A DNA stretch of 64,000 bases, taken from assembly GCA_003167495.1 (NCBI GenBank), contig PMSX01000139.1, forward strand, positions 1 to 64,000, in the 5' to 3' direction. The notes below the pieces were generated by a model. It ran no database searches. It was not told the origin of the DNA and was given only the letters and a program-made list of their open reading frames with translations. The stretch is from Bryobacterales bacterium (GTDB lineage: Bacteria; Acidobacteriota; Terriglobia; Bryobacterales; Bryobacteraceae). Position 1 is the stretch's first letter. Every line of letters begins with the position of its first letter. The translations under genes were made by a program, and so were the position numbers. Below are positions 12,865 through 40,800 of this stretch, piece after piece.

Positions 12865-12899
12865 ACGGTAAGTTAATCATCGTCAAAATGCCGTCAAAA
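12865..12899 (-). promoter_or_regulatory. TTTTGAC 11-bp direct repeat + -10 in front of tal
   Basis: Read on the minus strand: TTTTGAC (12899-12893), GGCA, TTTTGAC (12888-12882), then 10 bp after the extended TTGACG, TACCGT (12870-12865), then 7 nt to the ATG. The two heptamers are identical and 11 bp apart. Neither TTGAC sits 16-18 bp from the -10 candidate, so it is not a plain sigma-70 promoter; the geometry matches activator boxes of PhoB/OmpR regulators. The remaining 225-bp gap (12858-13082) has no gene. Confidence 0.72.
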
Positions 12900-13082
12900 A
12901 ATGCGTGAATGGTTTTGTCAGAGAGGGTTTGACCGTTGCGCGCCGATCTCCATGCTTGTTAACGATCATTTTGAAAACGCAAGAATTTTGAACCTTGGGC
13001 CGGCTCCGCAACATCATTTGCGCCGGGGGCCCTATCATCCGTCCGAACATCTGCGCCTACGGTTGGTGCTGAAATTCAAATT

Positions 13083-15275
13083 CTAGAGACGCACCCTCCG
13101 CAATCGCAAAGCGTTCGCCACTACCGAAACGGAACTGAAACTCATTGCTGCAGCGGCGAGCATCGGACTTAGTAGCAAGCCAGTAAGCGGGTAGAGTACA
13201 CCCGCTGCAATGGGAACACCGAGTGCGTTGTACAGAAATGCGAAGAACAGATTCTCTTTGATGTTGCGCATAGTTGCCCGGCTCAGCGACCGGGCACGCA
13301 TGATGCCGCGCAAATCCCCTTTGATGAGAGTGACTCCCGCACTCTGAATCGCTATATCGGTTCCGGTGCCCATGGCAATGCCCACCTGGGCCTGGGCCAG
13401 CGCCGGCGCGTCGTTGATTCCATCGCCTGCCATAGCCACAAAACGGCCTTGTTCTTGAAGCTCTTTGATGTGCTTGGCCTTGTCTGCGGGCAACACCCCA
13501 GCAATCACTTCATCGATACCCAGTTTCTTTGCGACGGCATCGGCGGTCGTTTTGCTGTCGCCGGTCATCATTACGATGCGCACCTTATCTTGGTGCAGTT
13601 GGCAAACGGCTTCTGCCGTGCTTTCCTTAATCGGATCAGCAACTCCAATCAGCCCAGCGGCTTTACCGTCGACTGCTACAAACATGACCGTTTGCCCTTC
13701 GGCGCGAGCAGATTCCGCCGCTTGCGCGAGTGCATCTATGTTGACTCCCGAGTCATCCATAAGTGCGCGATTGCCGAGCAGCACTGAGGCACCAAGGACG
13801 CGCGCCTTCACACCCTTACCGGTTAGCGCTTCAAAGGCTTCAGCCTTGGCCAGTTCAATCTTGCGATCCTGCGCACCCGAGACAATGGCAGCCGCCAAAG
13901 GATGTTCGCTGGCGCGCTCCAAACTCGCCGCAAGATGCAGAAGCTTAGTTTCGTCGAATCCTGGTGCGGGCTGAACACTAACCAGTTTGGGTTTGCCTTC
14001 TGTCAGAGTCCCGGTCTTATCAATGACGAGCGTGTCCACTTTTCGCATGAATTCGATGGCTTCGGCGTTTTTGAACAACACTCCTGATTTGGCGCCTTTA
14101 CCCATCGCCACCATAATCGACATCGGCGTTGCCAAGCCTAGCGCACATGGACACGCGATAATTAGAACCGCGATGGCGCAAATCAATGCGTGCGCAAGGC
14201 GTGGAGAAGGGCCGACGAAAGACCAAACGATAAATGTGAGCGCCGCAATGCCAAGCACCGCGGGCACGAAATAACCGGCAACTTTGTCAGCCAACTTCTG
14301 AATGGGAGCGCGACTGCGTTGCGCCTCCGAAACCATCCGCACAATTTGAGCAAGCAAAGTATCCGTACCCACGCGCTCCGCTCGAATTTGCAGCGATCCG
14401 TTGGCGTTCACGGTCGCGCCCGTGACGCGGTCGCCCGTTTTCTTTTCCACGGGTATCGGTTCGCCCGTGATCATCGATTCATCAACGCTGCTCGTACCCT
14501 CTAAAACCACACCATCCACCGGAATTTTTTCGCCAGGACGCACGCGCAGACGAAAGCCTACTTTCACCTGATCGAGCGGCTCATCGGTTTCTGAGCCGTT
14601 TTCGGCTATGATACGGGCCGTCTTTGGCGCCAGTCCAAGCAGAGCCTTGATAGCCGCCCCCGTTTGACTCCGAGCCCGCAGTTCCAGAACTTGCCCTAAC
14701 AGTACAAGAGTCGTGATCACGGCGGCCGCTTCAAAGTAGACTGCTACTCCGCCGCTTGCATCGCGGAAAGTGGGCGGAAAGATACCGGGGAGAAGGGCGG
14801 CCACGAGGCTGTACCCATATGACACTGCCAAACCCAGTGAAATGAGGGTAAACATATTCAAGCCTCTGTTCACAATTGACTGCCAGCCACGCACAAAAAA
14901 CGGCCAGCCGCCCCACAGAACCACCGGCGTTGCCAGAATGAGTTCAAACCACGTCCAGAAACGCGCACTTGCTAACTGCTGGAGCGGATTTCCCGCCATA
15001 GATTCAGACATGCTCACAATTAACACCGGGAGCGCCAGCGTTGCGCTGACCCAGAATCGTATTGTCATCTCGCGAAGTTCGGGATTTTTTTCCTCTGTTG
15101 TCGAGACCGCGCCCGGCTCCAATGTCATTCCGCAGATGGGACAATTTCCCGGGGTGCTGCGAACGATCTGCGGGTGCATCGGACAGGTGAACTCATCAGT
15201 TGAGCTTTTCCCTTTGGAGGGCTCTGGCGGCATCCCATGGACAGGATCGTTCGTCTTCGGACTTGTAGCAGTCAT
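13083..15275 (-). CDS. copA: Copper-exporting P1B-type ATPase
   Basis: 730 residues, inner membrane. Instead of a ferredoxin-like HMA domain the N-terminus has a heavy-metal-binding YHS-like module ([20 protein letters not shown], residues 30-49). The transmembrane metal motif is CPC (375-377, [10 protein letters not shown]), the phosphorylation site DKTGT (419-423), actuator MITGEP, and hinge [16 protein letters not shown] ATPases of this class export Cu+ (or Ag+). A 39-residue Met/His-containing membrane peptide is encoded 14 bp upstream and likely co-transcribed. Metal specificity rests on the CPC motif. Confidence 0.93.
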
Positions 15276-15288
15276 AGTATGTGTCGCG

Positions 15289-15408
15289 TTATCGGCGCGC
15301 GCGTCGGCTTAGCAGAATCGCTCCCGCAATTACCAATGCGGCGATTAACACACAGATCGGTAGCCAACTACCCATTGAACCGCCCATCCATCCGTTGTGG
15401 TCCATCAT
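15289..15408 (-). CDS. Tiny Met/Trp/His-rich membrane protein next to copA
   Basis: 39 codons, start at 15408 (or the second ATG at 15405), with GGAGGG 11 nt upstream. The N-terminus [15 protein letters not shown] is rich in Met with one His, a soft-metal-binding look; one TM helix ([18 protein letters not shown]) and a basic tail RRARR follow, giving an outside-N orientation. It ends 14 bp before copA. Small MMGG-type membrane peptides beside copper genes are common, so a role in copper handling is likely but unproven. Confidence 0.68.
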
Positions 15409-40581: not shown

Positions 40582-40600
40582 AGAGTCTTCAGGTTCTTCA

Positions 40601-40635
40601 AATGTAGAAGAATCCTCGTCAAAATGGTGTCAAAA
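40601..40635 (-). promoter_or_regulatory. TTTTGAC 11-bp direct repeat + -10 in front of glgX
   Basis: Minus strand: TTTTGAC (40635-40629), ACCA, TTTTGAC (40624-40618), 10 bp, TACATT (40606-40601). The ATG follows 19 nt after the hexamer. The presence of this promoter supports 40581 as the real glgX start rather than 40482. Confidence 0.76.
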
Positions 40636-40765
40636 CGAATGGCTCGGCAATCGTAGAGCGCAAAGTGGGCCGGAGCGGCCCGTCCCAATCCCCAACGGTC
40701 TCAGACGGCTGAAAAGTACCGGGTTTGGAGCGCTAAAGCGGACGAAAAGTTTGCCAAATCAGCGT

Positions 40766-40800
40766 TTTTGACAAGATTTTGACATTTTTCGAAGTAAATT
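40766..40800 (+). promoter_or_regulatory. TTTTGAC 11-bp direct repeat + -10 in front of the GDP-mannose gene
   Basis: TTTTGAC (40766-40772), AAGA, TTTTGAC (40777-40783), 10 bp after TTGACA, TAAATT (40795-40800). Both heptamers perfect. Back-to-back with the glgX site 130 bp away, so one intergenic region carries two divergent copies. Confidence 0.76.

Follow-up and report, generated by a model that had tools for sequence, protein, structure and literature searches.

The window, by which we mean the whole 64,000-nucleotide stretch, carries an island of carbon and energy metabolism genes, and its members are listed in Table 1 together with the repeat elements found in front of several of them. 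The gene for an orphan response regulator lies divergent to the phosphoketolase gene xfp, with one element in the gap between the two, and is followed by rpiB, a HAD hydrolase gene, ackA and fba. Genomes are referred to here by our own labels, G000 being the one that holds the window. The frame of the glgX-like gene starts at an ATG (40581), reaches its in-frame stop (40498-40581, minus strand) and resumes as a long open reading frame at TTG 40482, reflecting either a broken gene or an assembly error. The tpi product extends about 170 residues past the TIM domain; this C-terminal part is matched by proteins in G195 and G227, and in G007 its counterpart is located apart from tpi. A lone receiver domain with a replaced phospho-acceptor Asp (LIVRPYT) is encoded leftwards at 35466-35855, with copies 87% identical in G007, one 48% identical in G227 and another at the site linked to the regulator in G010. 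The leftwards gene at 29578-31506 codes for a protein of 643 aa with no Pfam or NCBIfam match; by eye, its numerous hydrophobic stretches make it look like a transporter.

Table 1. Repeat elements, island genes and the candidate regulator in the window.
Feature	Position	Strand	Remarks
Element before tal	12865..12899	-	repeat 12882-12899, N11, TACCGT; matrix score 41.7
Element before xfp	24852..24886	-	repeat 24869-24886; in the divergent xfp/regulator gap; matrix score 43.9
Element before glgP	32009..32043	+	repeat 32009-32026; CAAAAT in the -10 position; matrix score 33.0
Element before tpi	36964..36998	+	repeat 36964-36981; one mismatch, second heptamer TCTTGAC; matrix score 30.3
Element before glgX	40601..40635	-	repeat 40618-40635; matrix score 41.7
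Element before guanylyltransferase-like gene	40766..40800	+	repeat 40766-40783; matrix score 38.9
Seventh, weaker element	15657..15691	-	three mismatches to the pattern; matrix score 18.2
tal, transaldolase	11775..12857	-	
xfp, phosphoketolase	22336..24789	-	start judged from homologs
Orphan OmpR/PhoB-family response regulator, KdpE-like; proposed activator	25125..25868	+	Pfam Response_reg and Trans_reg_C
rpiB, HAD hydrolase, ackA, class I fructose-bisphosphate aldolase (fba), after the regulator	25872..29266	+	
glgP, glycogen phosphorylase-type	32053..34566	+	
tpi, triose-phosphate isomerase with extra C-terminal part	37059..38300	+	start judged from homologs
glgX-like debranching enzyme	38455..40581	-	in-frame stop at codon 28
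Mannose-1-phosphate guanylyltransferase-like	40862..41818	+	below NCBIfam cut-off

The original prediction described six direct repeats, each pointing towards the gene that follows it, and a pattern scan of the window recovers all six on the expected strands and at the expected positions. The full element reads TTTTGAC-N4-TTTTGAC-N11-TAnnnT with a T-rich spacer, and five of these six sites have TAnnnT 11 bp past the repeat, glgP being the exception. Neither TTGAC lies at a normal -35 distance, as had been proposed, the spacers to the -10 being about 10 and 21 bp. The distance from the -10 to the likely start codon is short for tal (7 nt), glgP (9 nt) and glgX (19 nt) and long for tpi (60 nt), the guanylyltransferase-like gene (61 nt) and xfp (62 nt). 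With so short a gap between its -10 and the ATG (12857-12865, minus strand), the tal transcript may be near-leaderless. The seventh element is 382 bp before a heavy-metal ATPase open reading frame (13083-15275).

The spacing to the -10 was examined in the 17 exact repeats of G000, G007 and G010, three sister genomes; these were picked by the repeat alone, which keeps the comparison non-circular. TAnnnT is present at exactly 11 bp downstream in 14 of the 17, and the 37 remaining offsets in the range 0 to 37 give four matches combined, with a background of 0.0056 per position. The departures are glgP and two repeats in a tandem array in G007 (contig C494). That array (L103:1201-1266) comprises six copies of an 11-bp unit of the TTTTGACTGCC type and lacks a -10 at the usual distance, as does a shorter 11-bp array of the TTTTGACTGCC type in G000 (C273, L115:1946-1991). 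These TTTTGACTGCC arrays are perhaps extended binding arrays, or perhaps unrelated.

The repeat pair had been expected to be commoner than in control sequence, and this is borne out. Exact copies of TTTTGAC-N4-TTTTGAC number eight in the 9,386,293 bases of G000, five of them in the window, and the reversed pattern has none. With one mismatch allowed the count in G000 rises by five to 13 (control, 5), the additions including the tpi site and two overlapping matches in the C273 array. Signal is separated from chance by these exact and one-mismatch counts over genomes, and not by three-mismatch counts in the window, where nine matches are not unusual (5.4 expected; nine of 100 shuffles reach as many). 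At up to three mismatches the full element is found 17, 25 and 21 times in G000, G007 and G010, with 12, 13 and 11 matches in the controls; the excess at this level is modest, so the signal resides in the near-perfect sites. A weight matrix built from 37 sites, all from other genomes and omitting doubtful sites of G047, G056, G241 and G261, gives the six predicted sites scores of 30 to 44 in this out-of-sample scan, with the seventh site as a further match, and no score of 9 or more in the reversed window or in 20 block-shuffled windows.

Exact repeats occur in five of 60 genomes, G000 included: eight in G000, seven in G007, two in G010 and one each in G047 and G056, the other 55 having none, and the reversed control yields a single match over the same 60. 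The full element with at most one mismatch is found nine times in G000, nine in G007 and five in G010. Across 257 genomes of the order, again including G000, the repeat plus -10 at up to one mismatch gives 48 matches in 13 genomes (control, 3), and a further 395 genomes of the phylum give four (control, 13), which is background only. At that stringency the element is therefore a feature of one family within the genomes searched. It is present in none of five genomes reached through weak relatives of the regulator (at most 41-43% identical).

The element also precedes orthologous genes of other family members, as expected if homologous islands share it. It lies before xfp orthologs in G000 and G007 (two copies each), G010, G088 and G114; before tpi in G000, G007 (twice) and G010; in the glgP region in G000 and G007 (twice); and before the guanylyltransferase-like gene in G000, G007 and G010. 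Other genes downstream of an element code for an H+-ATPase-type P-ATPase slightly under its NCBIfam cut-off (G000, and G007 twice), a UPF0182 protein (G114, with weaker sites in G007 and probably G010), a GH15 protein (G195 and G227), a Ca-ATPase and a sugar transporter (G088), a transaldolase, a transketolase and cytochrome c oxidase subunit I (G216), a molybdopterin/cytochrome b561 protein (G195), a PRC-barrel protein (G010) and, as judged by eye, short-chain dehydrogenases (G000 and G114). Several of the genome bins with the element have 6-10% contamination (G000, at 7.6%, G007, G010, G156 and G195), and G088, G114 and G216 have only 1-2%.

The regulator consists of a receiver domain (PF00072, 3e-23) followed by a Trans_reg_C winged helix (PF00486, 1.6e-17). 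KdpE, a potassium regulator, is its top match in both PDB and NCBIfam, and among the matches listed from 84,980 species no relative exceeds 49% identity to it. It scores 181.8 bits against the KdpE equivalog (cut-off 325) and 158.1 bits against the PhoB model (cut-off 296.2), and we reject strict membership of either family, both scores being under the curated cut-offs. No kinase or kdp gene is present among the neighbours searched (xfp, rpiB, HAD, ackA and fba), in which it differs from KdpE; homologs beside KdpD/KdpA do exist elsewhere in the genus (L284 in G000, L288 in G002). G000 has three regulator copies (on contigs C370, C339 and C35; 100, 83 and 66% identical to that of the window), which may be paralogs or may come from mixed strains, given the contamination of the bin.

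A tree built from 58 KdpE-like proteins places the 12 element-linked copies together with seven sister copies on one side of a branch (98/87); the 12 element-linked copies alone are not one group (2 changes). The recognition helix reads HLLRV followed by T or N in all 19 branch members and in none of the 39 other homologs, of which 33 have YLRV or YLHV followed by Y, F, L or H and six are unlike either. According to the excerpts of PMC3264566 that we cite, KdpE requires R193, R200 and T215 for DNA binding, and its Y191 and H198 occupy positions where PhoB reads bases. The branch keeps R193, R200 and T215, as KdpE has them, and differs in the other two: Y191 is replaced by L in all 19 members, and the H198 position holds N in 17, the window copy among them, and H in two.

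Element and regulator occur together. Among the 60 genomes, copies more than 55% identical to the regulator are found only in G000 (three), G007 (two) and G010 (one), which are the genomes with two or more exact repeats. Nine of the 257 order genomes have the regulator at E<=1e-75, a threshold fixed after the list had been seen, and all nine have the element, as do four of the 248 others; Fisher's test gives p of about 6e-14, from a table whose total of 258 is one too many and uncorrected for kinship. A site is at most 2.6 kb from the regulator in all nine. It is within about 0.3 kb in G007 (both copies), G010 (two mismatches), G088, G114, G156, G166 and for two of the three G000 copies, and is farther away for the G000 copy on C35 (1.8 kb), in G195 (1.2 kb) and in G216 (2.6 kb). 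In G156 and G166 the regulator-adjacent site faces genes with no match to the island genes of the window, which indicates that regulator and element move as a pair, independently of the island.

The four element genomes without a close copy are G259, with two perfect sites and a top regulator match only 37% identical, and G227, G241 and G261, each with one imperfect site and a top match of 41-43%; the G241 and G261 sites look like chance. With at most one mismatch allowed, no site is found in the seven genomes that have sister-branch copies (54-56% identity, E 1e-74 to 3e-70). Sister-branch loci have weak TTGAC-type repeats, whose scores of -2 to 13 overlap those of unrelated loci (G002, 9.5; G034, 6.3) and come from a matrix of 46 sites that includes sites of the loci scored and is thus partly circular. 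The G034 locus is that of a homolog outside the branch, with a TTTTGAC-type repeat alongside it.

From the branch and its linkage to the element, the regulator of the element is very probably the response regulator encoded at 25125-25868. This upholds the earlier proposal of an OmpR/PhoB-type activator near 25095 in its main part, with the qualifications that the protein is closer to KdpE than to PhoB, that its receiver is partly degenerate and that four element genomes lack a close copy. The further proposal that one activator would serve the whole set gains from the element standing before orthologous genes elsewhere, but applies incompletely in the window, where some island genes lack a site of their own and none points at the regulator operon (regulator, rpiB, HAD, ackA and fba).

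The receiver domains of the branch are unevenly preserved. The phospho-acceptor Asp is replaced by G, H or N in G114, G088 and G010 (three of the 12 element-linked copies) and is lost in none of the seven sister copies and none of the 39 other homologs. The window regulator keeps the Asp, with its acidic pair changed to G and K; the G010 regulator has lost both acidic pocket residues as well, and one of the two remains in the C339 copy and in each of the G007 copies. Because of these losses, and with no kinase following the regulator, control by phosphorylation seems weak or lost in some copies.

Judging from these sequence comparisons, we consider it likely (probability about 0.82) that the element is a promoter driven by this regulator as an activator. 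Two subunits of the regulator, or of its paralogs, would bind in a head-to-tail arrangement to the two TTTTGAC heptamers, which are a helical turn from each other. The bound subunits would occupy the place of the -35 hexamer and hold RNA polymerase on TAnnnT, as PhoB does at the pho box, and transcription would begin about 7 nt past TAnnnT. The genes switched on in the window would be those for the phosphoketolase, the pentose-phosphate and triose enzymes, the glycogen phosphorylase and the debranching enzyme, and in relatives also those for the GH15 protein, cation ATPases, the UPF0182 protein and cytochrome oxidase. Glycogen and sugars would then pass through phosphoketolase to acetyl phosphate and ATP, alongside cation pumps. 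The gene set fits a switch to breakdown of stored sugar and ATP production based on acetyl phosphate when energy is short; the gene content also prompts the guess that a shortage of energy or oxygen may be the signal.

The main alternatives concern what binds the element and to what effect. The element could be the activator site of a different transcription factor that travels with the island, and both the element genomes without a close regulator copy and the sister-branch genomes that have the regulator without a good element speak for this. We nevertheless regard it as unlikely, since in G156 and G166 regulator and site are adjacent beside non-island genes, the pair evidently travelling alone, and since direct 7-4-7 repeats are typical of the OmpR/PhoB family. 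Repression by the same regulator, whose bound dimer would cover the -35 region, is slightly less likely again: the location would suit either action, but a promoter with no -35-like word at normal distance should be weak without an activator, and a fixed N11 spacing is what contact with polymerase, rather than repression, would call for. The strict distance to the -10 would also suit a long promoter that an unusual sigma factor reads without a further activator, an explanation made very improbable by the perfect link with a response regulator in nine of nine genomes; we know of no sigma factor that is matched by two equal heptamers 11 bp apart with spacers of 10 and 21 bp.

That the repeat is a product of chance or a selfish sequence without function has a very slight probability. 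The 11-bp arrays without a -10 in G007 (six copies) and, in shorter form, G000 would be in keeping with it, but controls are near zero, and the heptamers, the N11 distance and the -10 are kept before orthologous genes and in several genera while the spacers vary. The complement of the heptamer, GTCAAAA, resembles the heptad word of CtsR, which recurs with a period of 10; the period here is 11. CtsR (PF05848) is found in none of the nine element-bearing genomes searched, with Lactococcus lactis as a positive control, and we reject a CtsR operator, which is almost certainly not what these repeats are.

An activator site for the response regulator, the reading that we prefer, has close parallels in layout. 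About 10 bp lie between the end of the pho box and the -10, and the element resembles this box as an 11-bp direct repeat of the form 7-N4-7 followed by a -10 with no -35. It differs from the pho box in its heptamer, which is not of the CTGTCAT type, in the 11 bp to the -10 and in its predicted targets, which belong to carbon and energy metabolism and not to phosphate; the PhoB score of the regulator (158 against a cut-off of 296) is a further difference. In the excerpts of PMC4832192, PhoB and PhoP sites are 7-N4-7 direct repeats read by a tandem dimer, such as CTGTCAT(A/T)4CTGTCAT and GTTCACCN4GTTCACC, for E. coli PhoB and the PhoP proteins of M. tuberculosis and S. coelicolor. The period of 11 in the linked element is the direct repeat of one helical turn that is expected of the OmpR/PhoB family, binding by the regulator being putative.

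The KdpE operator of kdpFABC is given in excerpts of PMC3264566 as a pair of T-rich direct repeats spaced by one turn, TTTATA-N5-TTTACA. A repeat of this kind, TTTACG-N5-TTTATA, lies between the kdpE-like gene and kdpA of G002, and there is a second in G058; among the KdpE-like loci scanned these two alone have one beside them, the G000, G007 and G010 homologs having none. Degenerate receivers are known from the atypical OmpR-type regulators ChxR and HP1043, the latter binding TTTAAG direct repeats with an 11-bp period (excerpts of PMC5253667). In this they resemble some copies of the element-linked branch, which differs from them in that degeneration is patchy within one branch, the Asp being lost in some copies and the acidic pair in that of the window.

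These facts would be consistent with duplication of KdpE and a joint change of its helix and half-site, though the ground for this is thin. A fuller account is tentative, and we hold it at clearly less than even odds: a KdpE-like regulator may have lost its kinase, changed the base-reading residues of its helix along with its half-site (from TTTTAY-like to TTTTGAC) and come to act as chief activator of a movable island for times of energy shortage, several copies giving up phosphorylation and having their activity set otherwise, for example by dosage, by the pseudo-receiver at 35466-35855 or by Xfp-AckA metabolites. The branch would also provide a naturally occurring example of altered specificity among OmpR/PhoB-type regulators, its helix and the linked DNA word both differing from those of its KdpE-like relatives within the same family. 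The pho-box layout is known, and the half-site, the gene set and the regulator branch look new; the listings of open-licence PMC papers searched included no described regulon of this kind. For a poorly known bacterial family the elements would define a testable regulon, with a promoter code, a probable activator and a coherent group of targets suited to life on sugar reserves.

Genes on both sides suggest that the island may be part of a mobile element. At the left end of the window (1086-4311) are the genes of a T2SSE/VirB11-like ATPase and of an HTH_36 protein, and to its right (C370:69167-72413) those of a Toprim primase-like protein and of two tyrosine integrases; this arrangement fits the patchy distribution. 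The window also codes leftwards for a serpin (54703-55713; PF00079, E 1.4e-61), an odd neighbour for a bacterial carbon island.
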